DNA from: a virus
Virus record (IMG/VR): IMGVR_UViG_3300036828_000592
Location: 1 to 24,356 of that record
DNA length: 24,356 nucleotides
Direction: 5' to 3' (one strand)
A program made the position numbers and the translations under genes. Positions within the stretch are counted from its first letter, which is position 1; the number at the start of each line of letters is the position of its first letter. The notes beneath the pieces are model-generated. The model was given only the letters and a program-made list of their open reading frames with translations. It searched no databases and was not told where the DNA came from. Below are positions 4,665-16,154 of the stretch, in pieces.

Positions 4665-5987
4665 TTGAAATACAATCAACCTTTCGATCAACCGTCGAAT
4701 CCGAACGCGTCTTATGTCGACGGCAACCCGGCGGCGGGCATCCAGGGTTCCATCGTGCCGGCGGCATCGATCGAATTTCCGCAGCGTGAAATCGTGAACG
4801 CGCTCCAGGCGGCGGGGCTGGTCGGCACCAATGCCGATCTCACGCAGCTGCTGCAGATGCTCAAGATCATGGACGTGTTCAACAAATTCAAAATGGGGGT
4901 CAATCAAGGCAACGCTTCGCAATGGAGCTGCACGGTCCCGACGCTTCCGATCATGCCGCCGCCGACCGGCTGCATGATCTGGTTCGAGCCGCTTTACGCC
5001 AGCGTGAATGGCGGCACGGTCTTTTCAGTCAACGGTAGTTCGTTCATGCCGGTGACCAACGCCGATCTCACGCCTTTAACAATCGGCGACGTGATGGGGC
5101 CCGGCTGGCTGCAACTGTTCTTCGACGGCACGCAATGGGAGATCGTTTCCGGTTCGAAAGGACGCATACCGGGCGTGTTGCCGCTGCTGAAGGCAAATGC
5201 CTACTGGTACGTCAACGGCACAACCGGCGATGACAACAACTACGACGGCACTTCGGCGACCGTCGGGGTCGGAAAGATCGGACCGTTCAAGACGATCCAG
5301 CGCGGCGCCAACGAGTGCCCGAAGTACAATATGAACGGCTACAATCAATATGTGAATGTCGCCGATGGCAACTATGCTCTGGCGGTCCTTCCCAACACCA
5401 ACGGCGTCGGCACCGTTCATCTCCTTGGCAACTCGGCGAACCCGCAGAATTGCGCGGTCTCGGCGTCTGGGACTCAACAATGCGCGATCATCCAAACTAG
5501 TGGGAATTATGACATCGAGGGCTTCCGCCTTTCGACCGCGTCTGGCGCGCTCGATGGCTATGCTTCGAACGGTGGAAAAGCCGCCGTCCGCAATCTCCGC
5601 TTCGGGCCGTGTGCTCGTTACCATATGTCGTCCGCTATTTCTGGCTCGGTCTTGCTTGATGGCGGAACGATCACGATCGAGGCCGGGGCAAACTGCGCAG
5701 GGCATGTCGAAGCCTCCTACGCCGGGCTTCTCAGTTCGAACGCCAATACGCCGCCCGCTCTCATCATCCAAGGCGCTGTGGCATGGGCACAGGGTTTCTC
5801 CAACGCGGCCGACCTCGGCATTGCCGAGGTATTCTATTCGACCATCACCGGCGCCGCCAACGCGACCGGGCCGCGATATACTGCATCCATGAATGGCGTC
5901 GTTGATACCTTTTATCATACCGGTGGCCAAACCTACTACCCCGGCTCCACGCCAGGAACGCTTACGACCGGCGGTCAGTATCAGTGA
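4665..5987 (+). CDS. tail fibre / beta-helix tailspike-like protein
   Basis: 440 aa from TTG at 4665, chosen because a strong GGAGG at 4655-4659 precedes it. Residues 1-65 (the PSNPNASYVDGNPAAG region, then a helical EIVNALQAAGL segment) resemble baseplate-attachment domains of phage fibres. From about residue 185 the sequence reads YVNGTTGDDNNYDG, followed by a GPFKTIQRG step and regular short hydrophobic strands. That pattern is typical of right-handed parallel beta-helix tailspikes, many of which bind or degrade surface glycans. No catalytic residues can be assigned from the sequence alone. It probably contacts the host surface. Confidence 0.65.
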   Translation: MKYNQPFDQPSNPNASYVDGNPAAGIQGSIVPAASIEFPQREIVNALQAAGLVGTNADLTQLLQMLKIMDVFNKFKMGVNQGNASQWSCTVPTLPIMPPPTGCMIWFEPLYASVNGGTVFSVNGSSFMPVTNADLTPLTIGDVMGPGWLQLFFDGTQWEIVSGSKGRIPGVLPLLKANAYWYVNGTTGDDNNYDGTSATVGVGKIGPFKTIQRGANECPKYNMNGYNQYVNVADGNYALAVLPNTNGVGTVHLLGNSANPQNCAVSASGTQQCAIIQTSGNYDIEGFRLSTASGALDGYASNGGKAAVRNLRFGPCARYHMSSAISGSVLLDGGTITIEAGANCAGHVEASYAGLLSSNANTPPALIIQGAVAWAQGFSNAADLGIAEVFYSTITGAANATGPRYTASMNGVVDTFYHTGGQTYYPGSTPGTLTTGGQYQ

Positions 5988-5994
5988 GGTTGGC

Positions 5995-6378
5995 ATGTCT
6001 GGTCCCGCTTATTACACCGGTACGATGAACATCGCGATGAACGATGATTGGATCGTGCCGTTCCTCTATGAATCCCTCGGTAGCGATGGCGTCACCTTGA
6101 CGCCGATCGATCTCACCGGGTCGACGTTGATGATGGAAGTCAGAACAAGCGAGAGTGATCACAACGTCGCCGTCTCAGTGTCATCGTCTCCTCCTAGCAG
6201 TGGGATTCAAATCACCAATGCGACCGGTGGCATGTTCACCATCACCTTAGATCGCAATCGCTTGAGCCAATTGTCGCCGGGCAACTACGTCAGCGATCTC
6301 GTGCGGCTGATGCCGTCCGGCTGGCAAGAACGGCTCTGGGAAGGCACCGTCACCGTTGTCGAGGGCACGACGCGGTGA
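5995..6378 (+). CDS. small fibre-cluster protein, function unknown
   Basis: 127 aa. ATG at 5995 was chosen because it lies just after the tailspike stop and leaves only a short gap; a longer frame upstream would overlap the tailspike gene. The sequence is beta-rich (an [13 protein letters not shown] strand near the start, an [11 protein letters not shown] strand, then [15 protein letters not shown]) and looks like a compact Ig- or jelly-roll-like domain. Small proteins of this kind often sit between tail fibre genes in Rhizobiales phages, possibly as fibre adaptors, but I do not recognise a named family. Its TGA overlaps the GTG start of the next fibre gene. Confidence 0.55.
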
Positions 6379-7742
6379 GCACGCAAGTTCTCACGGTCCC
6401 GCAGACTGGACCCCCCGGTCCGGTCGGACCGACTGGGCCGCAGGGCGTTCCTGGTCCGCCTGGTCCGCAGGGCCCCGGTGGCACCGGCCAGCAGGGCGAG
6501 CCGGGACCGCAGGGGCCAATCGGGCCGCAAGGCCCAGGTGGCACAGGGCCGGCGGGACCGCCGGGGCCGCAAGGGCCGACGGGGCCGCAGGGGCCGATCG
6601 GCCTGCAAGGCCAGATGGGCACCCCGGGGCCGGCAGGGCCGACTGGCGCGCCCGGCCCACAGGGCCCGGCCGGCGATATCACCGGCGCCGTGCGCTACGA
6701 TCAAACGCAGGTGCTCACGGCGCCGCAGGCGCTCACGGCCAGGCAGAACATTTTTGCCGCGCCGATCGACAGCATGATCGAGAATAATCTGATCATCAAT
6801 GGCAGCTTCAACGTCGCGCAGCAGTACGGAAGCAATGTAGTCAGCCTTGGCACCGGCAACAATTCGGTTTGGGTTCTTGACCAGTGGAACACGGTTCAGA
6901 ACAGTTCGGTGATGACCTCCGCGTGGAATAAGCAGACGTCGAATTTTCCGTATGGCTATTCATCCGGGATCGGAGGTAGCGTCGGCACTGCCAACCCAAG
7001 TCCAGCGGCCACCGACTATCTCTCTCACCAGCAGAAGATCGATGGGGCTCAGATAGCACGACTGCAGTGGGGCTCGGGGGGCGCCCGGCCCGTGACGCTC
7101 GGCTTCTGGGTCGCGATGACCGTGCCCGGCACCTACTCGGTGACACTTCGTGACACCGTCTCGGGGCAGTGCTATCCGGCGACCTACACGATCAACGCGG
7201 CGAACACCTGGGAGTACAAGACCATCGTCATCCCGGGCTGCACCGCAGGCACCTCGTGGAGCGGTGGGCTCTTCATAGTCTTTACGCTGGTGTGCGGCTC
7301 CAACTATCTCGGAGTGCCGAACACCTGGCAGAGCGGCAACATCGTCGCCGCCAATAACACGAATAATTTTGCGGCGGTCGTCAACAACGCCTGGATCACA
7401 GGTGTGTCCCTGCTGCCGGGCAACGACGCGCCGGCCAGCGATCGCGCCCCGCTGCTGATGCGAAGCATCGCGAACGAGCAGCTGATGTGCGAGCGCTGGT
7501 TCAGATACCTGCGCGGCGTGGGCTTCTACGGCTACGCCCCGACGTCGATAACAGGCATCGGAGGCATCGTCTTTCCGGCTATGCGCAAGGCACCGGCGGT
7601 GACGTTCGCCAACACGACCTACACCAACGGCAGCGCCCTCGCATTGAACGCGGCCAGCGTGAATGCGGCAGTCGTGCAGTGGACGATAGCCGGCGCCCCT
7701 AGCTTCGTCTCAACCGACATCCTGCTCGACGCGAGGTCTTGA
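6375..7742 (+). CDS. collagen-like tail fibre protein 1
   Basis: 455 aa from GTG at 6375 (GTGA overlap with the upstream stop). Residues about 12-100 are uninterrupted Gly-X-Y collagen-like triplets, which form a rigid trimeric shaft. After a DITGAV linker comes an [10 protein letters not shown] motif typical of phage fibres, then a beta-rich C-terminal domain (about 140-455) beginning with an [13 protein letters not shown] segment that resembles carbohydrate-binding or receptor-binding fibre tips. The shaft contains 37 codons identical at DNA level to fibre 2. Together the two genes look like duplicated receptor-binding adhesins. Confidence 0.75.
6417..6527 (+). repeat. 111-bp identical direct repeat, copy 1 (fibre 1 shaft)
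   Basis: This stretch is identical by eye to 7858-7968 (offset 1441 bp). It encodes 37 residues of Gly-X-Y shaft in both fibre genes in the same frame. Sequence flanking the block diverges, including at third positions, so recent exchange rather than slow divergence is likely. Confidence 0.9.
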
Positions 7743-7743
7743 A

Positions 7744-8967
7744 GTGTCAAACGGCGGCGAGCGATTCAATCTTTCCAGCGGCACGCCGCGCATCACGCTG
7801 ATCAAGAGCGCGACGGCGGAAAATCAAACGCTGACGGTGCCGGCGCAAGGCCCGGCGGGTCCGGTCGGACCGACTGGGCCGCAGGGCGTTCCTGGTCCGC
7901 CTGGTCCGCAGGGCCCCGGTGGCACCGGCCAGCAGGGCGAGCCGGGACCGCAGGGGCCAATCGGGCCGGCGGGCGTACAAGGGCCGATAGGAAATACCGG
8001 TGCGACGGGCGCGCAGGGGCCGCAAGGCACGACCGGCGCGACCGGCGCGCAAGGGCCGATCGGAAATACGGGGCCGGCAGGGCCGACTGGCGCGACAGGG
8101 CCGCAGGGGCCGGCCGGTCCGGTGCCCGAAGCGCCGACCGACGGCGCGACCTACGGGCGATCGAATTCCGCCTGGGCGGGTGTCTTGCCGATCATTGGCG
8201 GCACGCTGACCGGGGCGCTGACGCTCAATGCCGATCCGGCATCGAACCTCCAGGCGGCGACCAAGCAGTACGCCGACCACAACGTCCGCTGGGACGCCGC
8301 GCAAGCTCTGACGGCGCCGCAGCAGGTCCAGGCGCGCGCCAACATCAACTCGTTTTCGCTGCGCACCCGCACCGTCATAACAACCGGCAGCGGCACCTAC
8401 ACGACGAAGGCCAACTGCGTTGCCATCAACGTCCGCATGGTCGGCGGCGGCGGCGGCGGCGGCGCTGGCGGCACCGGCGGCAACGATGGCTCGAACGGAA
8501 CGGCGTCGACGTTCGGATCGCTCTCGGCCGGCCCCGGCACCGGCGGCCTGCAAAGTCAAGCAGGCAAACCCGGCAGCGGTGGCATCGCATCAGGCGGCGA
8601 CGATAATCAGACCGGCGGCGCCGGCGGAAATGGTTTTACTATTCAATCAGCCTCCGCCGGCCCTGGCGGCTACGGCGGCAATAGTCTCCGTGGTGGCGCA
8701 GGCGCGTGCGGCACGGGCAACGTCGGCCCCAGTGCCGGCACGCCCAACAGCGGCGGCGGTGGTGGTGGTGGCACCTCCATCACCAGCAACCAATGCACGG
8801 GCGGCGGCGGCGGCGCTGGCGGCTATTGCGAGAAGCTGATCGTCCCGCCGGCTGCGAGCTACGCCTTTGCCGTCGGCACAGGCGGCGCCGCAGGAACCAT
8901 CGGCACAGGAAGCCAGCCTGGAGCCGCAGGCGGTTCCGGCATCATCATCATCGACGAGTATTACTGA
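7744..8967 (+). CDS. collagen-like / glycine-rich tail fibre adhesin 2
   Basis: 407 aa from GTG at 7744, 1 nt after the fibre 1 stop. Residues about 35-129 are collagen-like triplets. A helical segment follows (about 160-205, with an [11 protein letters not shown] motif common in phage fibres and an [17 protein letters not shown] motif). From about 225 the protein is a Gly-rich sandwich of short Gly runs and Ser/Thr/Asn segments, ending with a conserved strand-rich close ([10 protein letters not shown]). The Gly-rich half resembles polyglycine-II type adhesin tips known from T-even-like phages, so receptor binding is the likely role. Confidence 0.72.
7858..7968 (+). repeat. 111-bp identical direct repeat, copy 2 (fibre 2 shaft)
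   Basis: Second copy of the segment at 6417-6527, in the same codon phase. Recombination between the copies would produce a hybrid fibre with the N-terminus of fibre 1 and the tip of fibre 2, and would delete about 1.44 kb. Confidence 0.9.
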
Positions 8968-9289
8968 TGGCCTGCCGGTTCTGCCGCTCGATCGATACGC
9001 AATTGTTGTTTCCACCATTCGTAGCCCGGCGGATACCAAGATGAAATCACGCCCATCGCCGCCTCTGTCTGTTCGCGGCAGGGCGCCTCGTCGGCGAAGC
9101 ACTTGAGGCACGGGCTCGTGGCTTTGATGCTGTCACGCGGAAGGTTAATTCATCCCCGGCATGAAGGGCAAGCGGCCCAATAGGTGAGGCCGCACTGAGG
9201 TTTCGGCGCCTCGCGCGCCGTCCGACGTCCGTTGGTTCCGGCACTTGTCCTCCCGACGGACTACTCCCTGAACCTTGCCCCGGCTTCAC
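8961..9289 (-). pseudogene. possible broken Cys-rich small gene
   Basis: On the minus strand, two adjacent frames read like one real protein. Upstream, a frame closing at TGA (9150-9152) ends APKPQCGLTYWAACPSCRG. A second frame from about 9149 down to TAA at 8961-8963 contains CLKCFADEAPC and WYPPGYEWWKQQL. Neither frame has a good start. A third frame has a GTG preceded by GGGAGG and could be the original start before frameshifts. The Cys spacing suggests a small zinc-binding phage protein. It overlaps the end of fibre 2 and the terminator. I read it as a frameshifted remnant with modest confidence; it could also be two short genes with unusual starts. Confidence 0.3.
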
Positions 9290-9306
9290 AGCCGGGGCTT
9301 TTTTTT
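9277..9306 (+). terminator. intrinsic terminator of the tail operon
   Basis: A perfect 9-bp GC-rich stem (GCCCCGGCT at 9277-9285, AGCCGGGGC at 9290-9298) with a TCAC loop is followed by eight T residues at 9299-9306. It stops plus-strand transcription from the fibre genes before it runs into the convergent minus-strand tas operon. On the minus strand the T-run becomes an A-run, so it does not act in that direction. Confidence 0.93.
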
Positions 9307-9352
9307 AAGCAGCTTCCTTCTCAGTGATCGGAGCGAAGAAGTGCGTTGCCTG

Positions 9353-9853
9353 TCATTGCAACGTCCCGCGCGGCGGCAGCATGCCGACCATCCGGCCTTC
9401 CGACTGGAGCGCAGCGCCACGCGGTTCGATCAGCACCTCAAGCGGCGCCAGGTAGGGTCTCTGATTGGCCGGCCGCATGATGCGGCGGTGCGCCACGATC
9501 TGTCCGCAGTCCCGATCCTCGCCCTGGATCACGACAACCTCAACCCGGTCAGGATGCGATGCAACGCCGTGCCGGTAGATCGAGTCCAGCTCTGCCTTGT
9601 CGTTGATAGCGCGCTCGATGGTCCACGCCTCATCAACGAAAACATAGCGCACCACATCCTTTGTTTTGAAAAAAGCGCGGACCATGGCGACGCACGTGTC
9701 TTTGCCGAGAAACGACGGCGGCTCCACATCAAACTTCTCGCCGCTCGCCGAGACCGCAAACCACATCGGAGCTACCATCCCTGTCCCGCGGAATGCGACG
9801 TCGCATGCGCGAGAGGTGACGGCGATCATCTTGCGTAGCTCTTTTTCGCTCAT
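9353..9853 (-). CDS. unknown protein at the 3' end of the tas-like operon
   Basis: 166 aa. ATG at 9853 was chosen because GGAGG lies about 7 nt upstream; an in-frame TTG 6 nt earlier is less likely. I do not recognise the family. It is a mixed alpha/beta soluble protein: an N-terminal helix (SEKELRKMIAV), strands around APMWFAVSASG, a helix with CVAMVRAFFKT, the strand-rich VVRYVFVDEAW, then RVEVVVIQGED near residue 110. No membrane segment or recognisable catalytic motif is seen. It is the last gene of the minus-strand operon and is separated from the tas-like gene only by a solitary guide-array unit. That placement links it to the system, perhaps as an accessory factor, but this is inference. 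Confidence 0.7.
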   Translation of the reverse strand: MSEKELRKMIAVTSRACDVAFRGTGMVAPMWFAVSASGEKFDVEPPSFLGKDTCVAMVRAFFKTKDVVRYVFVDEAWTIERAINDKAELDSIYRHGVASHPDRVEVVVIQGEDRDCGQIVAHRRIMRPANQRPYLAPLEVLIEPRGAALQSEGRMVGMLPPRGTLQ

Positions 9854-9875
9854 TTGCAATCCTCCGGTTTTAGGG

Positions 9876-9973
9876 GTGAGCCCGGCACACTTAACGTGGG
9901 CATCACTTGGGAAGTGGCCGGGCTCGACGGTCGCATCACGTCCTTGGGCTTCAGTGCGCTATTGGCGACCGCA
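9876..9973 (-). repeat. solitary double-hairpin guide unit (U1) downstream of the tas-like gene
   Basis: Same architecture as the main array, placed exactly in the gap between the tas-like stop (9977) and the next start (9853). Stem 1 arms are at 9878-9886 and 9917-9925, stem 2 arms at 9927-9934 and 9965-9972. Plus-strand 9-mers are cacttaacg and cttgggaag in loop 1 (core tgggcatca), and tcacgtcct and gtgcgctat in loop 2 (core tgggcttca). The first base of the stem 2 left arm is A instead of G, which becomes a G-U pair in a minus-strand RNA. Because it lies outside any ORF, it argues that the element works as RNA or DNA rather than as coding sequence. Confidence 0.9.
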
Positions 9974-9976
9974 ACT

Positions 9977-10864
9977 CTATGCTGCTGGACGACGGTCAAG
10001 CGCGCGCTTTTTCGCCTTTGCCTGGACCGGCTTCTTCGCCTTCGCCGACTTCACCTTCGGCTCGACCGGCTGCACGGTGGGATTCTTCCACTCGACCAAC
10101 AAGTCGATGAGGAATTGCTTCATCGCAATGCGAATCCCGTCCATGCGGCGGTGGCCATCGGACCAATCCGGATGCGTTTCAATCGTGTGCTTGCGCCGCG
10201 CAGCATAAACTTCGCCATATGGGCCATTTGGTTTGCCTTCGCCGTCATCGGTCTTAGCTTTGCCGATCCACTGCGAGTTAACGAGCCATAATGCGATTTG
10301 ATGCATCAGCGCGTAACGCTCGCCCGAGAACGGATGCGCCTTCCACTCTTCGCTCGAAAGCACGCGATGCCGCCATGTTTTCCTTTTCCACGTCGAGCCA
10401 GCGAGGCCTTCAAAAGGGGCGAAACCAAGCCTCGACCAGAGCTTCGCCGGGTTCGCGTAGTTTGATAGATCGCCGGCCTCGGCCACGATCGTCGCCAGCC
10501 CGAGCGCGCCGGCACCATGCACGCTCACGATCCATGGGTAGACCGGGAGCTGCATCGCCAGTTCCGCGATGCGGGCCTCGGTTGCCTCCCGGCTATCATC
10601 AGCCGGCGCGCGCGCCTTGTCGCTCACCATCACCGTATCGGCGTATTCGTGATCTGCTCCAGCGCGGATCGCCTTGATGGTCGCGCGGACTTCCTTGTTG
10701 ATTTGCGCGCGCTCGGCCTCGCTCATCTCTGGGTGCCACTCGGTCGTGTTGATGCGTAAGAAGCTCTCGAGCGCGCGATCGAGCTTCTGTTGTATCTTCA
10801 TTGCGAACCGGCGACGCCGATGATGTCGGCGGATTTCGTTGATGATCTCTTCAGTTGTAGCCAT
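9977..10864 (-). CDS. Tas-like protein with IS110 Transposase_20 / Nop-like core
   Basis: 295 aa. ATG at 10864 was chosen for the GAGGAG about 8 nt upstream; longer upstream frames run through array unit U2. Residues 1-105 are helical and charged, like the coiled-coil part of IS110 proteins. Residues about 107-200 match the Transposase_20 pattern: VHGAGALGLATIVAEAGD (helix-hairpin-helix), then LSNYANPAKLWSRLGFAPFEG, with a serine in LAGSTWKRK where IS110 enzymes carry their SG motif. Residues 216-260 contain YGEVYAARRKHTIETHPDW and a final helix. Residues 268-292 are a Lys/Arg-rich tail. No RuvC DEDD domain or clear HNH is seen. With guide-like array units on both sides, this fits a TIGR-associated (Tas) RNA-guided protein, probably nuclease-less. 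A domesticated IS110 recombinase is the alternative. Confidence 0.8.
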   Translation of the reverse strand: MATTEEIINEIRRHHRRRRFAMKIQQKLDRALESFLRINTTEWHPEMSEAERAQINKEVRATIKAIRAGADHEYADTVMVSDKARAPADDSREATEARIAELAMQLPVYPWIVSVHGAGALGLATIVAEAGDLSNYANPAKLWSRLGFAPFEGLAGSTWKRKTWRHRVLSSEEWKAHPFSGERYALMHQIALWLVNSQWIGKAKTDDGEGKPNGPYGEVYAARRKHTIETHPDWSDGHRRMDGIRIAMKQFLIDLLVEWKNPTVQPVEPKVKSAKAKKPVQAKAKKRALDRRPAA

Positions 10865-10889
10865 TGCCTTTCTCCTCGTTCGAGAAAAA

Positions 10890-10987
10890 GTGAGCCCGGC
10901 ACGAGCAGCTTGGGCATCAACGCACGCGTGGCCGGGCTCGGCGGTCGCATTCGCCTTATGGGCATCAACCCGGTGTTGGCGACCGCA
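10890..10987 (-). repeat. solitary double-hairpin guide unit (U2) upstream of the tas-like gene
   Basis: A complete unit fills the gap between the 201-aa gene (ends 10995) and the tas-like start (10864). Both stems are perfect (stem 1 GAGCCCGGC/GCCGGGCTC, stem 2 GCGGTCGC/GCGACCGC). Plus-strand 9-mers are cgagcagct and acgcacgcg (core tgggcatca), then ttcgcctta and acccggtgt (core tgggcatca). It would be transcribed in the leader of the tas-like gene, so it could give guides from the same mRNA or influence tas expression. Confidence 0.92.
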
Positions 10988-10994
10988 ACTCTCT

Positions 10995-11600
10995 TCATGG
11001 CGAGCTTGGCGGCCCGATCTCCTGCACATGCGCCGCGGCAACAAGGTCGCGCGCCATCTTGGCGCCGCCGTCGCGCAGCAGCTCCGCCGCGCTGATTTTC
11101 GCCTTCTCCATGATGGTGGTCACGACGCCGGGCTTGATGGCTTCCTCGACCGTGACGAACGGATCGGCGGTGACGCAATGCTTCGACAGCATAATGCAGA
11201 GGAAAGTCTCCACCGCGTCGTCGTAGCCACGCTGCAGGAAGCTTGTCGCCGTCGTCGCCGACGCCTCGGCGATCGCGTGCAGGTCGTTGATCCGGATATC
11301 GCCCAGCCGGCGGCCACCGCGCATTGGTTTATCGAAGATCGCTTTCGTGTAGATTTTCTCAGCCGCCAGCGCGCCGGCCTTCTGCGCTTTGCTCGGCATC
11401 GGTGATCGGTGCGGGCCCTCGCGCCGTCGCGATGGGGTCTCCTTCTTTCTTCTGTTGCTGAGCGGCGTGAGATAATTCGACGCGATGGCGACGCGCAGCT
11501 CGCCATCGGTCTTGAGCATGGCCGCCAACGCGTTGACCGCGGCGGTAATGGATTTATGCTCCTTGAGAAGTGCCTTTGCGCTTGCTTCGAGCTTGCTCAT
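10995..11600 (-). CDS. unknown basic protein between guide array and tas-like gene
   Basis: 201 aa. ATG at 11600 was chosen for the GAGGA 7 nt upstream; an upstream ATG would start inside the array. I do not recognise it. Residues 1-42 are predicted helical (a KALLKEHKSITAAVNALAAM stretch), residues 44-66 are strongly basic (NRRKKETPSRRR), and the rest is helical with a DDAVETFLCIMLSKHCV segment near 127-143 and a C-terminal helix before a PPSSP end. An alternative start at residue 68 (MPSKAQK) is possible. Its position between the array and the tas-like gene, on the same strand, suggests a dedicated partner, for example for RNA or DNA binding, guide processing or nuclease recruitment. No motif proves any of these. 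Confidence 0.72.
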   Translation of the reverse strand: MSKLEASAKALLKEHKSITAAVNALAAMLKTDGELRVAIASNYLTPLSNRRKKETPSRRREGPHRSPMPSKAQKAGALAAEKIYTKAIFDKPMRGGRRLGDIRINDLHAIAEASATTATSFLQRGYDDAVETFLCIMLSKHCVTADPFVTVEEAIKPGVVTTIMEKAKISAAELLRDGGAKMARDLVAAAHVQEIGPPSSP

Positions 11601-11616
11601 GTTGGTGTCCTCTGTT

Positions 11617-12942
11617 TCAAAAGTGTGAGCCCGGCACAAGGTCACTGGGCATCAGGGCTGGCATGGCCGGGCTCGGCGATCGCATCGGTTGATTGGGCCT
11701 CAAAGAGGCGTTGGCGACCGCAACAGGAATAGGTGAGCCCGGCATTGAGGTCGTGGGCCTCAACAAGACCCTGGCCGGGCTCGGCGGCCGCAGGCTCTTG
11801 CTGGGCTTCACCGAAGCGATGGCGACCGCAGTTCGAAAGGGGGAGCCCGGCACAAGATAGTTGGGCATCAGAGGCGCCCTGGCCGGGCTCGGCGGTCGCA
11901 TCGCTGACATGGGCATCAATCTTGGGATAGCGACCGCAGTTCGATTAGGTGAGCCCGGCACGCCGTCACCGGGCGTCAGTCGTTCGTTGGCCGGGCTCGG
12001 CGGTCGCAAGTCATCTCTGGGCTTCACAAGCTCGCTGGCGACCGCAATAGGGAGAAGGGGTGAGCCCGGCACGCCGCCTCTGGGCTTCATCAGGAGGTTG
12101 GCCGGGCTCGGCGGTCGCAATTGATTCCTGGGCATCATTCCGCCGGTGGCGACCGCATTCGAAAAAAAAGGTGAGCCCGGCACTCCCATTCTGGGTTTCA
12201 GGGCGGCCCTGGCCGGGCTCGGCGGTCGCAGGGGCCCGATGGGGCTCAAGGTCCGAATGGCGACCGCAACGTGAATAAGGGAGCCCGGCACAAAAGTCCT
12301 GGGCTTCAGGTGCAGATTGGCCGGGCTCGGCGGTCGCAGCCGAGGTATGGGATTCACGGCTCGCTTGGCGACCGCATTCGGTTTGATAGGTGAGCCCGGC
12401 ATCCTCGTAGTGGGCATCACGGCATCGATGGCCGGGCTCGGCGGTCGCAATTTCCTTTTGGGCTTCACGTAGCCATTGGCGACCGCATTCTCGTTGATAG
12501 ATGAGCCCGGCAAAACGTCATTGGGCATCATGACTATTCCGGCCGGGCTCGGCGGTCGCACGGTGTACCTGGGCTTCAGACCCGCGATGGCGACCGCAAC
12601 TTGATGAAGAGGTGAGCCCGGCATCCGGTTTCTGGGTTCCAAGGTCTGCCTAGCCGGGCTCGGCAGTCGCAAGCGAGCCGAGGGCTTCACTTCATCTATG
12701 GCGACCGCATTCTGATTGAAGGGTGAGCCCGGCAATCCATTTCTGGACATCAACGTCATCGTGGCCGGGCTCGGCGGTCGCAAGGCCAGGATGGATTTCA
12801 CGGGAACGCTGGCGACCGCATTCGAGATGAAAGGTGAGCCCGGCATCTTGCCCTTGGGTTTCATGGTCATGATGGCCGGGCTCGGCGGTCGCAAGATCGC
12901 GATGGGTTTCATCGGGCGGATGGCGACCGCATTCGAATTCAT
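11617..12942 (-). other. 441-codon open frame running through the whole array
   Basis: The minus strand is open from ATG at 12942 to a stop at 11617-11619. The frame encodes a periodic Pro-rich peptide with a conserved NAVA-(3-4)-KP-(3-4)-RPPSPA-(4)-KP-(4)-PGSP pattern every 36-37 residues. Its ATG overlaps the TGA of the upstream 73-aa ORF (ATGA), and AGAGG lies about 10 nt upstream. All 11 linkers are 10 or 13 nt, so the frame is never lost. Against a protein role, isolated units occur outside ORFs, and three of the stem substitutions inspected change amino acids while keeping RNA pairing. One reading is that ribosomes traverse the array to prevent premature (Rho-type) termination, or that the frame is fortuitous. 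Confidence 0.35.
11625..12931 (-). repeat. TIGR-like guide array: 12 double-hairpin units, 24 modules, 48 nine-nt spacers
   Basis: Unit starts are 11625, 11733, 11841, 11949, 12060, 12171, 12279, 12390, 12501, 12612, 12723 and 12834; each body is 98 bp, linkers 10 or 13 nt. On the plus strand each unit is GAGCCCGGC-A, 9-mer, core, 9-mer, TG-GCCGGGCTC, then GCGGTCGC-A, 9-mer, core, 9-mer, TG-GCGACCGC. Nine-mers per unit, loop 1 pair; loop 2 pair: caaggtcac gggctggca; tcggttgat aagaggcgt | ttgaggtcg acaagaccc; ggctcttgc ccgaagcga | caagatagt gaggcgccc; tcgctgaca atcttggga | cgccgtcac gtcgttcgt; agtcatctc caagctcgc | cgccgcctc tcaggaggt; attgattcc ttccgccgg | ctcccattc gggcggccc; ggggcccga aggtccgaa | caaaagtcc ggtgcagat; gccgaggta cggctcgct | tcctcgtag cggcatcga; atttccttt cgtagccat | aaacgtcat tgactattc; cggtgtacc gacccgcga | tccggtttc aggtctgcc; agcgagccg cttcatcta | atccatttc acgtcatcg; aggccagga cgggaacgc | tcttgccct tggtcatga; agatcgcga tcgggcgga. 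No 9-mer recurs. The minus-strand core consensus is TGANGCCCA. Stem substitutions preserve pairing only on the minus strand, matching the strand of the neighbouring tas-like gene. Confidence 0.95.
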
Positions 12943-13160
12943 GACCAGCGATCCTCTTCGTTTTCCTCGAGACGTCCGCCGATCGTCACCGACGCCTCGC
13001 GAATCGTTGCGAAGAAGAGCGCTCTGCAGCGCGAATTCTGTCGCACGACGGAGCGGCGGATCGAGCCGACCAGCTCGCCATCAGTGGCGCCCGGCGCGGT
13101 CAAGTACGCGTTCAAGAACGCTCCCTCTTCACGCATCGTCAGGCGCCCGCGCTCGGTCAT
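12939..13160 (-). CDS. small unknown protein upstream of the guide array
   Basis: 73 aa from ATG at 13160, which overlaps the TGA of the excisionase-like gene (ATGA); an upstream in-frame ATG at 13184 would overlap further. I do not recognise a family. The sequence has an EEGAFLNAYLTAP segment, then GELVGSIRRSVVRQNSRCRALFFATIREASVTIGGRL, and an acidic end. Its own stop overlaps the start of the frame through the array. It is either a real small coupled gene or the coding leader from which transcription enters the array. Confidence 0.5.
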   Translation of the reverse strand: MTERGRLTMREEGAFLNAYLTAPGATDGELVGSIRRSVVRQNSRCRALFFATIREASVTIGGRLEENEEDRWS

Positions 13161-13360
13161 TGACGCGTCCATCGCTCCCGCCATTCTTCAGCGGCGGCGC
13201 GGCTGATCCGCACATGCCTGCCGATCATGATCACTGCGGGGCCATCCCCACGGTCGCGCATTGAGTAATAAAGGCGAGGGCTGATGCGGTTGAGTGAACA
13301 GAATTCCGCGATTGTAAGCATGTCGGAATCAGCGGTTTGTCCTTTGTCCTGGCTGGGCAT
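13157..13360 (-). CDS. excisionase / AlpA-like helix-turn-helix protein
   Basis: 67 aa. The sequence LTIAEFCSLNRISPRLYYSMRDRGDGPAVIMIGRHVRISRAAAEEW has the layout of MerR-type winged HTH DNA-binding proteins of the excisionase/AlpA group: a HTH (about 15-35) and a wing ending in an RISRAAAEEW helix. Such proteins control excision directionality or activate phage promoters. It is the first gene of the minus-strand operon and is divergent from the integrase across about 460 bp. That suits a recombination directionality factor, and it places the guide array and tas-like gene under the same promoter. The 13360 ATG is used because an internal ATG at 13321 has no ribosome site. Confidence 0.78.
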   Translation of the reverse strand: MPSQDKGQTADSDMLTIAEFCSLNRISPRLYYSMRDRGDGPAVIMIGRHVRISRAAAEEWRERWTRQ

Positions 13361-13819
13361 TGGGGCGTCCCTTTTGGTCAGCGCCCGTTTTTGAGCCCCG
13401 TTACCCGCGCCCGTCTAGTGTGCACGGGGCTGCACCGACGTGCATGTGTCCAGTTTCCCATGGATTATTTTTGTGGTTCGCTGCGGGGTCGGACCGGCCG
13501 CGGCGCCTCGTTTTGGGCGGCCGCGTAAGGGACGGGTACCAGGAAGTGACTTGGATTTGTAAGTCGTTGATTTTGCAGGGTGGTTTCGCAGAGGCTCAAC
13601 CCATAAAAGTGGGGTGCGCGGGGGTGCTCTGACCTCACCATGTGTCCAATCTGGCCCATCCTAAGCCATCGGAATACCTCGACATTTTCAGCATTTTTCA
13701 TGCACCGGAATGCGCCGGGGTGCTTGCGTATACCCATGCGTCTCGCTAAATATATGGGGAACGGTCAGGGTCGGTTTTCGCCCCGATCAGGGACTCAAGA
13801 AAACGAAGGAGAACGAAAA
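13361..13819 (+). other. divergent xis-int control region, possible attP
   Basis: 459 bp without a convincing gene. It should hold the minus-strand promoter for the xis/array/tas operon and the plus-strand integrase promoter. An AT-rich TAAATATAT lies at about 13747-13755, 65-70 nt before the integrase start, and could be a -10 region. A 10-bp direct repeat, catgtgtcca, at 13443-13452 and 13639-13648 might be an integrase or Xis arm site. Several G/C-rich inverted stretches are present. I cannot identify the attachment core without the host sequence, and no tRNA 3' end is evident. Confidence 0.4.
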
Positions 13820-15070
13820 GTGAGCATCCACAAATTGACGGCTACCAAGGTCGACCGGCTGATCCAAGGGCGCAAGCTCGGCAAGCACAGCGACGGCGGC
13901 GGCCTGTACCTGCGGGTCGACGAGGGCGCCGATGGCGGCACGCTCTCGTCCTGGGTTTATCGCTACCAGCGCGGCGGAGGCGATACCATGATGGGCATCG
14001 GCCCCACCCATATGTACGATCTTGAAGCCGCGCGCGAGCGAGCCCGGAAGGCGCGCGTTGACGTCGCGGAAGGCCGAGACCCGAGGACCGGCGTCAAGGT
14101 CGGCGGCACCAGCAAGACCTTCGCCGAATGCGCCGACGAGTGGTTCCCGAAATATCGGGCAGACCTCTCGGGAGCCAAGGGCGCCAACGATCTAAAGGTC
14201 GCCTTTGAAGCCTACGTCTACCCTGTGCTGGGCTCAGTTCCGGTCGACGCGATCGACCATCACCTCGTCCTCAAGGTGGTCGAGCCGATCTGGCTGACGC
14301 GTCGCAAGCTCGCCCCGGCACTACGCGGCAAGATCGAGAAAATTCTGGAGTACGCAAAAACCCGCGGCTACCGCACGGGTGACAACCCGGCGCAATGGTC
14401 GCTGCTGTCGACGGTGCTGCCGTCGGCTTCCTACGTCCCCAAGAACCATGCTGCTCTGCCTGATGCCGACTTGCCGGCCTTCATGATCGAGCTGCGCAAG
14501 GAGACGGGCGTTGCGGCGCGCGCGCTCGAGTTCTCCATCCTGACCGCCTGCCGGACGGGCGACATCAAGGGCGGCGATCAGTCGGATGCCGAGCCGCGGC
14601 CGCCGATGCAGTGGTCGCACATCGATTTCGAGGCGCGCTGCTGGAGCATCCCGATCACCAAGAACGGGTTGAAGCACAAAATCCCGCTCTCCGATCGCGC
14701 GATCGCCATCCTCAAAGAGATGCGCGGCTACGGGCTTGATGACCAGCTCGTGTTCCCCTCGCTCGACAATCCAGGCCGGCCGATGTCCCATCGCGCCCTG
14801 CCGGCGGTGCTCAAGCGCATGGGGCGCGCCGGCCAAGTCACGGTCCACGGGTTCCGCGCGACCTTCAAGACGTGGGCGGAAACGCGGAAGCCGAATAAAT
14901 TCGACGAGCGTGTTGTCGAGGCTGCGCTCGCGCATACTCCGGAAAAACTCCGCAAGGCATATTTCCGGAACGACCATTACGACGACCGCATCCCGCTGAT
15001 GGCGGCGTGGGCGGCTTACGCGAACGGCGGCGCGCAGATCATTCCGTTCCGCAGCGCAGAGGTGGCGTGA
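13820..15070 (+). CDS. int: tyrosine recombinase integrase (P4-like, DUF4102 N-terminus)
   Basis: 416 aa from GTG at 13820, selected because AAGGAG lies 9 nt upstream; an in-frame ATG at 13640 lacks a site. Residues 1-90 are the arm-binding DUF4102-like domain (KVDRLIQGRKLGKHSDGGG, YLRV). Residues about 100-200 are the SAM-like core-binding domain. The catalytic domain has R245 in ILTACRTGDI, K281 in ITKNGLKHKIPL, H343/R346 in VHGFRATF, H372 in ALAHTPEKL and nucleophile Y381 in RKAYFR, so all key residues are present and it should be active. It integrates and, with the divergent Xis-like protein, excises the phage genome. It is immediately followed by a partial duplicate of its N-terminus. 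Confidence 0.95.
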   Translation: MSIHKLTATKVDRLIQGRKLGKHSDGGGLYLRVDEGADGGTLSSWVYRYQRGGGDTMMGIGPTHMYDLEAARERARKARVDVAEGRDPRTGVKVGGTSKTFAECADEWFPKYRADLSGAKGANDLKVAFEAYVYPVLGSVPVDAIDHHLVLKVVEPIWLTRRKLAPALRGKIEKILEYAKTRGYRTGDNPAQWSLLSTVLPSASYVPKNHAALPDADLPAFMIELRKETGVAARALEFSILTACRTGDIKGGDQSDAEPRPPMQWSHIDFEARCWSIPITKNGLKHKIPLSDRAIAILKEMRGYGLDDQLVFPSLDNPGRPMSHRALPAVLKRMGRAGQVTVHGFRATFKTWAETRKPNKFDERVVEAALAHTPEKLRKAYFRNDHYDDRIPLMAAWAAYANGGAQIIPFRSAEVA

Positions 15071-15072
15071 TT

Positions 15073-15396
15073 ATGAACATCCATAAATTGACCCCGCTTA
15101 AGATCAACCGGCTGATCCAGGGTCGCAAGTTCGGCAAGCACAGCGATGGCGGTTGCTTGTATCTGCGGATCGCCGAGGGCGCCGACGGGTCCGTTCTGAC
15201 GTCATGGTTCGTCCGCATCTATCGCAACGGGCGCGAGAGCCAGATTGATTTCGGCGATAGCAGTCTGACCACCGCGCGCGAAATGGCCAAAAAGGCGCGC
15301 ATCGATCTTTGGGAAGAGCGCGCGCACGAACGCGCTGAACTCCATGGCACTGGTGCATACGCACTAATCAACCAACCGAAGGAAATACTCCGCTGA
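15073..15396 (+). CDS. truncated second copy of the integrase N-terminal domain
   Basis: 107 aa beginning just after the integrase stop. Residues 1-46 (IHKLTPLKINRLIQGRKFGK, HSDGGCLYLR, EGADG, SW) closely match integrase residues 2-45, and the following KARIDLWEERAHERAE aligns with the end of that domain. There is no core-binding or catalytic domain. DNA identity between the copies is also high, so this is a tandem partial duplication. As an arm-site-binding module without catalysis it could compete with integrase at arm sites and modulate recombination; it could equally be a decaying fragment. The intact frame and adjacent start favour expression. Confidence 0.75.
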   Translation: MNIHKLTPLKINRLIQGRKFGKHSDGGCLYLRIAEGADGSVLTSWFVRIYRNGRESQIDFGDSSLTTAREMAKKARIDLWEERAHERAELHGTGAYALINQPKEILR

Positions 15397-15408
15397 ACTC
15401 TCGACGGG

Positions 15409-15425
15409 GCGTGCCAATGGCACGC
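15409..15425 (+). other. short perfect hairpin between the integrase fragment and the next gene
   Basis: GCGTGCC and GGCACGC form a 7-bp stem with a 3-nt AAT loop, flanked by TCGA on both sides. No T-run follows, so it is a weak terminator candidate at best. It may attenuate or punctuate transcription between the integrase unit and the early operon. Confidence 0.4.
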
Positions 15426-15477
15426 TCTATCGAGCGATCATCCCGACCGCTCAACCAACCAACCGAAGAAGGAAGCA

Positions 15478-15720
15478 ATGAACACCAACGAAACGTATAT
15501 CGCCGTCACCTGTGCGGGGAACCTAGAAACCGCCCTCGAGGCGCTGATTGATCGGCACGGGCTCACGCATGTCGTCAACACCCTGGCGGTGCTCTGCACC
15601 GAGAAGGCCGAGCACATCCGCACCAATTGGCAGGATCGCTCGACCGCCAGGGCCTGGGAAATCGACGGCCGCACGCTCGACAAGGCGGCGCGGTCAATCT
15701 GCTCGGACGGAGGTGCGTGA
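15478..15720 (+). CDS. small unknown early protein (80 aa)
   Basis: First gene of the early operon, with GAAGGAAG about 5 nt before the ATG. The protein is acidic and helical, with a segment NLETALEALIDRHGLTHVVNTLAVLCTEKAEHI (about 15-47) typical of small alpha-helical phage proteins, then WQDRSTARAWEIDGRTLDKAARSI. I recognise no family. The stop overlaps the next ATG (TGATG), so the two genes are coupled. Confidence 0.65.
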   Translation: MNTNETYIAVTCAGNLETALEALIDRHGLTHVVNTLAVLCTEKAEHIRTNWQDRSTARAWEIDGRTLDKAARSICSDGGA

Positions 15721-15938
15721 TGTTGACCCGATCCAAGTGGCACAAGTCGATTACTGATGACGTGCTCGTCGATGCGTGCGAGCGGCAGATGAACGACCTG
15801 GACAATCCCGGCTTCTGTCTAGCGTGCGGCTGCGAGAATGGCGGCTGCGAGCCCGATGCGCGCGGTCGCAAATGCGAGGCTTGCGGCGAGCCGCAGGTTT
15901 ACGGCGCGGAAGAGCTTGCCATCATGGTTGCGCTCTAA
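15720..15938 (+). CDS. small Cys-rich zinc-ribbon-like protein
   Basis: 72 aa starting in a TGATG overlap with the previous stop. The first half is helical (SITDDVLVDACERQMNDLDN); the second half has CLACGCENGGCEP, then KCEACGEPQVYGAEEL. The six Cys arranged as CxxCxC...C...CxxC are consistent with one structural zinc site plus extra thiols. Phages commonly encode such small zinc-ribbon proteins next to one another in early regions. A DNA- or protein-binding role is plausible but unproven. Confidence 0.75.
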   Translation: MLTRSKWHKSITDDVLVDACERQMNDLDNPGFCLACGCENGGCEPDARGRKCEACGEPQVYGAEELAIMVAL

Positions 15939-15962
15939 ATGACCAACAATCGAGGGACCAAA

Positions 15963-16154
15963 ATGACTGACCTAACTGTCGAAAATCACGGCTCGATCTT
16001 TTTGCTGCGAGGCGAAAGCGATCTTGGCCGCGAGTGGATTGCGGAGCATATCCCCGAGGATGCCATGACCTTTGGCAGCGCCATCGCGATCGAGCACCGC
16101 TACATCGGCGCGATTGTCGATGGTGCTGTTGCCGATGGGCTGGAGGTGCAATGA
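15963..16154 (+). CDS. small conserved phage protein (63 aa)
   Basis: ATG at 15963 is preferred because GAGGG lies 7 nt upstream; an in-frame ATG at 15939 directly after the previous stop would add 8 residues. The sequence MTDLTVENHGSIFLLRGESD, then REWIAEHIPEDAMTFGSAIAIEHRYI, resembles a small alpha/beta protein often seen in alphaproteobacterial prophages and mobile regions. Its function is unknown. Its TGA overlaps the next gene's ATG (ATGA). Confidence 0.72.
   Translation: MTDLTVENHGSIFLLRGESDLGREWIAEHIPEDAMTFGSAIAIEHRYIGAIVDGAVADGLEVQ

Follow-up and report, generated by a model that had tools for sequence, protein, structure and literature searches.

Are the paired nine-nucleotide (nt) sequences that a phage carries in rows of hairpins the guides of an RNA-guided system and, if so, of which one? 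The question is raised by IMG/VR virus record IMGVR_UViG_3300036828_000592, a 24.4-kb stretch of DNA that was analyzed as a whole (the window) and whose baseplate, tail-fibre and tyrosine integrase genes identify a temperate tailed phage. Its minus strand carries 28 hairpins, all with loops of equal length, between positions 9878 and 12931, and among them lies a gene for a 295-amino-acid protein (9977-10864, minus strand). A sequence-only reading had proposed that this is a TIGR-Tas relative beside a guide array, and NCBIfam, a PDB profile, the fold of the protein and the boxes of the hairpins all agree on this point. We consider membership in TIGR-Tas, and in its stem-loop subclass, almost certain; to the fuller reading, a phage-borne stem-loop TIGR-TasA system in which the array guides TasA, we give a probability of about 0.78.

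The protein within the locus is a nuclease-free TasA

The best NCBIfam family of the 295-amino-acid protein is TIGR_Tas_endo (E 4.8e-16), with IS110 second (8.8e-11), and a PDB search with a profile of seven relatives returned TasR (9mty, E 3e-6) as the sole match at E<0.1. When the AlphaFold2 model (pLDDT 78, pTM 0.71) was compared with known structures by Foldseek, as the sequence-only reading had proposed, ranks 1 to 11 were all Tas-tigRNA complexes (TasH and TasR, probability 1.0), followed by the IS110-type recombinases IS621 and ISCro4 and, in third place, by Nop5. The Transposase_20-like core noted earlier is also present, although its Pfam match of 20.9 bits lies slightly below the cut-off of 21.3. 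Since neither Pfam nor NCBIfam found a RuvC, HNH or DEDD domain, the protein is a TasA, i.e., a solo-Nop TIGR-associated protein without a nuclease domain, and its gene is here called tasA. The model begins with a coiled-coil, and the IS110 profile aligned only from its position 116. Residue S157, in the motif AGS(T/S)W, is invariant and lies near the position of the IS110 nucleophile despite the missing DEDD domain.

The probable guides are stem-loops arranged as doublets

Each hairpin consists, in order, of a stem closing in C, CA, nine variable nt, UG....CCA, nine variable nt and UG, and in every case the G of the final UG base-pairs with the C at the stem end. The resulting layout, CCA-N9-UG....CCA-N9-UG, is the box C/D arrangement of TIGR guides, and the guide-bearing strand is the minus strand. 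The core of the loop (UGAUGCCCA/UGAAGCCCA on the minus strand) had been described as a conserved 9-nt sequence; it is present but is not a plain repeat, as its terminal UG and CCA reappear at the stem foot. The 28 hairpins form 14 doublets with alternating stems, GCGGTCGC followed immediately by GAGCCCGGC. Twelve doublets (24 hairpins) stand in tandem in the main array (11627-12931, minus strand), and two solitary ones flank tasA on the same strand, upstream at 10892-10987 and downstream at 9878-9973. Our recount thus upheld the earlier figures of 14 double-hairpin copies (12 tandem, 2 solitary), 28 modules and 56 distinct 9-mers, none of which is repeated. In the first doublet of the main array (12836-12931, minus strand), which served as the template for this layout, hairpin 1 reads GCGGTCGC, CA, the A spacer, UGAAACCCA, the B spacer, U and GCGACCGC, and hairpin 2 reads GAGCCCGGC, CA, A, UGAAACCCA, B, U and GCCGGGCTC; it folds into two hairpins at -47.8 kcal/mol (z -5.6). 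The two stems of a doublet are nearly contiguous, and the tandem doublets are separated by linkers of 12 or 15 nt.

A hairpin scan of the window returned 28 hits, all of them on the minus strand, and the shuffled window gave none. Scanning for the ten box letters only, with no stem required, gave 245 places in 16 phage sequences (the window and 15 others), against a chance expectation of about 1.5 (from 4^-10). Complementary arms (at least 6 of 9 pairs) flank 238 of these places, and the stems of 8 to 9 base pairs (bp) comprise 116 distinct arm pairs with compensatory changes. A palindromic stem therefore takes the place of the edge repeat, as in the stem-loop subclass, with an array period of 108 to 111 nt and extended stems; the dual-repeat form, with an unpaired edge repeat and a 36-nt period, was not encountered. 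Accordingly, the discrete guides of about 36 nt that had been foreseen are not expected from this subclass with its nuclease-free TasA, for which the main text of the founding paper describes whole stem-loop units (PMC12045711). The units also differ in structure from the direct repeats of 25 to 36 nt with single spacers that accompany cas genes in CRISPR-Cas, PADLOC gave no match, and an Rfam search gave none either. On the minus strand, one frame is open across the whole array (11617-12942, 441 amino acids).

Three virome scans yielded about 24 further distinct loci, with Tas proteins of 47 to 64% identity. Nearly all of them bear a similar array, L079 showing isolated box matches only. In a survey of doublets, 276 of 318 hairpins had exactly one partner within about 5 nt, 3 had two and 39 had none; only 25 of 3,800 random places passed the same partner criterion. 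Clusters of at least two hairpins held an even number in 51 of 56 cases, 24 of these being isolated doublets, and 29 single hairpins were also present, several of them distant from tas. Stem order within doublets is fixed, with rare exceptions, and the spacing is 0 to 5 nt inside doublets versus mostly 6 to 17 nt between them. The doublet form is kept even though the stem sequences vary among phages (GCGCGCGGC, ATCTCGGC with GCCGAGGGC, and others); the doublet is therefore the unit of inheritance. When the spacers of both hairpins were compared, the two loops of a doublet showed neither core homology nor covariation.

Some hairpins lie in unusual places. In G008, lone hairpins with AGGCCCGGCC-type stems are scattered over positions of about 5600 to 16000 and near 36000, distant from tas. 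In L005, L007 and L015, the tas reading frame continues into hairpins, and in L010 a hairpin lies within the start of the tas frame (5960-6000), so that the guide and the translation of this Tas protein may be in competition. Linker lengths are multiples of three in 54 of 74 cases.

A probable base pair inside the guides

The two 9-mers of a loop had been described as unrelated. While the 56 sequences of the window are indeed distinct, their ninth position is constrained: A9 and B9, the spacer bases immediately before each box D, can form a Watson-Crick or wobble pair in 251 of 365 distinct hairpins versus 158 expected. Permutation within phages (10,000 rounds) gave a highest sum of 190 and never reached 251. 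Among the 153 pairs of spacer positions, A9-B9 is the strongest and the sole clear covariation. Watson-Crick pairs are the most enriched class (164 versus 91.5 expected), G-U combinations are likewise in excess (87 versus 66.8; U-G, 36 versus 23), and U-U, G-G and C-U fall below expectation. The pairing is present in both hairpins of a doublet, in 171 of 238 hairpins detected without a stem requirement and, among loci added afterwards, in 40 of 68 versus 28.6 expected (permutation fraction 0.002). Because spacers are almost never shared, common descent is ruled out as the source of this signal, and the enriched wobble pairs suggest pairing within the RNA more than a single base pair of the target being read on two occasions. 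Each half-guide would then probably comprise 8 nt (8 + 8 in total), spacer position 9 not being free, and we read the A9-B9 pair as one that may close the guide on its pseudo-twofold axis. For comparison, the founding paper states that A and B "do not show obvious covariation" (PMC12045711, main text).

Spacers change faster than the protein

In the box-only scan set, 472 of 476 spacers are distinct. Close relatives also differ: L072 and L074, with Tas proteins 98% identical, have 4 of 14 hairpins in common, two of these with one base changed; L070 and L072 (Tas 91% identical) share one spacer; and L006 and L007 (92%) share no exact spacer. The 9-mers, whose conservation between related phages would have spoken against guides, thus turn over among phages with 91 to 98% identical Tas. 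Spacers turn over faster than the Tas protein, a pattern that fits guides and not structural RNAs, and L070, L072 and L074 form a natural series in which mutating targets could be sought. One of the G012 hairpins at 9535, 11492 and 11602 has its A spacer in common with one sister and its B spacer with another, which suggests recombination in the loop core as a possible source of new guides.

Homologues in cultured actinophages

A weak match pointed to gp255 of Arthrobacter phage Talia1610, which in turn led to 85 records of cultured phages; 76 of these come from Mycobacterium phages, and the homologues are annotated as transposase, DNA-binding or hypothetical protein. Cultured actinophages, among them the Mycobacterium phages Pinto, Pari and BPBiebs31, carry a previously unrecognised solo-Nop TasA homologue. 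The loci that we read (L095:3566-4249 and L097:2507-3217, as well as L110, L111, L112 and L113) show short unannotated arrays of single hairpins near the gene, with loops of 30 to 39 nt, CCA boxes and mostly CG where UG is expected. In Pinto, BPBiebs31, Tripl3t and Pari (Fromanvirus), the stems are largely conserved and the spacers differ. A9-B9 pairing occurs in 8 of 17 hairpins, a sample too small to judge, and a search for targets of these 17 hairpins in four mycobacteriophages and three partial loci gave nothing better than weak matches with 3 mismatches. The Pinto homologue lies three genes away from a gene annotated as superinfection immunity. Since these homologues occur in phages of M. 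smegmatis, a laboratory host, the native function is open to direct genetics.

Neighbouring genes

Between the array and tasA lies a companion gene (10995-11600, minus strand) for a 201-amino-acid protein without a known domain. Of 17 related records, 14 contain a homologue, mostly near tas; the product is predicted to be all-helical and gave no Pfam, PDB-profile or fold match. The gene downstream of tasA (9353-9853, minus strand; 166 amino acids) has homologues in 5 of the 17 related records, in several of them elsewhere in the genome. It is not tied to tas and would be accessory at most. Upstream on the array strand, an HTH_17 protein resembling excisionases (13157-13360, minus strand; Pfam E 1e-7, phrog_66) is the probable start of the tasA/array operon.

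A proposed guided binder and its alternatives

From the family and fold of the protein, the hairpins, boxes and doublets, the A9-B9 covariation and the spacer turnover, we infer how the system may be expressed and processed, bind DNA and act. A minus-strand operon transcript would bear the 28 hairpins as 14 two-hairpin units, and a TasA dimer would grip two box C/D sites per hairpin, one at the stem foot and one in the loop core. The two spacers of one hairpin would recognise a single short DNA site, each pairing with a different strand, and the A9-B9 pair within the RNA would leave about 8 + 8 guiding bases. As a nuclease domain is lacking, no cutting is expected; the complex would bind, open and bend DNA and thereby block transcription, replication or mobility, of rival phages or of selected host genes. 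RNA-guided DNA binding without cutting is the likely function. The doublet would probably be released as a single RNA of about 100 nt holding two TasA dimers, and we lean slightly toward its acting as one RNA. A bolder version, which we find rather unlikely, makes the doublet an array-borne bridge RNA, whose two stems, four half-guides and two TasA dimers would hold two DNA sites and bridge or loop them without cutting. If true, TIGR guides and IS110 bridge RNAs would have a living intermediate in the doublet.

Several results weigh against a guided TasA system of this kind. The TIGR_Tas_endo score of 59 bits is under the equivalog cut-off of 100 bits. Regarding targets, the sequence-only reading had suggested phage sites where both 9-mers of a module match adjacent positions on opposite strands, and none were found above the control: neither the window nor the 15 related phage contigs contain an exact 18-bp site in either half-site order, near matches there (gaps 0 to 4) equal the re-paired control, and two virome target scans gave chance-type matches only. 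In the virome, a first conserved hairpin had 4 matches, of which those read appeared unrelated; a second had 11, 10 of them with the same gap, which resemble common codon runs (KAGxAK). Genome contigs searched with the Tas profile and the integrase for a host gave no match, and a search of plasmids gave none. Because no target was found, immunity, regulation and rearrangement are not distinguishable.

The alternation of stems, too, has a simpler possible cause: hairpins may act singly, with alternating stems merely preventing a 3' arm from pairing with the next 5' arm and the doublet having no function. We take this to be a real possibility. In a generic model (random stems, A-only loops), identical tandem stems reached 0.08 to 0.32 correct pairs and alternating ones 0.50 to 0.53, the main text of the founding paper reports single stem-loop RNAs (PMC12045711), and the spacers of the two hairpins do not covary. 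What such an arrangement does not predict is the junction of 0 to 5 nt inside doublets, the fixed stem order, the even cluster sizes or the 24 isolated doublets; moreover, mycobacteriophage arrays escape mispairing by another route, namely, single hairpins with stems that are all different. The covariation of A9 and B9 could alternatively mean that the half-sites overlap by one target base pair, read on both strands. This would fit the strict complement being the most enriched class and the order B then revcomp(A), which places A9 beside B9, yet an overlapping DNA pair does not predict the G-U excess, and the depletion of U-U, G-G and C-U also speaks against it; we consider it unlikely.

Two further explanations would change the nature of the system. 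TasA could be an IS110-type recombinase acting in trans. The doublets would then be its bridge RNAs and keep target and donor together during strand exchange, in which the phage integrase might take part. The two-loop guide with four half-guides, IS110 as the second-best fold family and the invariant S157 would suit this idea, which we nonetheless judge very improbable given that the protein starts with a coiled-coil and has no DEDD domain, and that the two loops share no core bases, which recombination would need. Finally, the 9-mers might not be guides at all but part of a repeat-protein gene, or of a set of hairpins, in DNA or RNA, to which a protein binds. The sense frame that stays open through 12 doublets and the linkers in multiples of three hint at coding, whereas the spacers taken together show no clear depletion of stops in that frame, and such stops are present in the arrays of other phages, so that the coding-repeat reading is unsupported. 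With covarying stems, nearly all spacers different and boxes that fit Nop-binding motifs, the non-guide explanation as a whole is largely refuted.

Relation to known systems

The closest known arrangement is the stem-loop TIGR-TasA locus of a Peromyscus gut contig, where, according to the main text, processing at the linkers yields RNAs of one stem-loop each (Faure et al. 2025, PMC12045711). That locus likewise has a solo-Nop TasA, hairpins whose two spacers of 8 to 12 nt lie between box C (CCA) and box D (UG), and several subarrays separated by genes. In contrast, two distinct stems are here joined by 0 to 5 nt as a doublet, the loop core is constant in length, and covariation links A9 with B9. 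The main text of the founding paper mentions neither paired hairpins nor the A9-B9 pair, and measured against that text they would be new parts (PMC12045711). Dual-repeat TIGR arrays with TasR or TasH share the CCA/UG boxes, the paired 9-nt spacers and a Nop protein (nearest structures 9mty and 9w03) but have edge repeats and a nuclease, and A/B covariation is reported absent there. IS110/IS621 elements with their bridge RNA resemble our locus in the two-stem guide, the split guides in each loop and a related Nop-like fold and C-terminal domain; unlike them, the locus lacks a DEDD domain, contains many units rather than one and has no core common to the loops; element boundaries were not found either, none having been looked for. 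Box C/D small nucleolar ribonucleoproteins (Nop5/Nop56) share the Nop fold and the box C/D logic, but here there is no K-turn, fibrillarin or L7Ae, and the expected target is DNA, not RNA. VIPR is a distinct system with GGY/NN guides and was set aside.

The description of TIGR-Tas in Science in 2025 left open the native targets, the evolution of the arrays and the role of nuclease-free TasA. This phage clade offers three ways to approach them: its guide unit of two stems, which stands between single tigRNAs and IS110 bridge RNAs; an internal base pair whose covariation would redefine the set of guiding bases; and pairs of near-identical phages with differing spacers.

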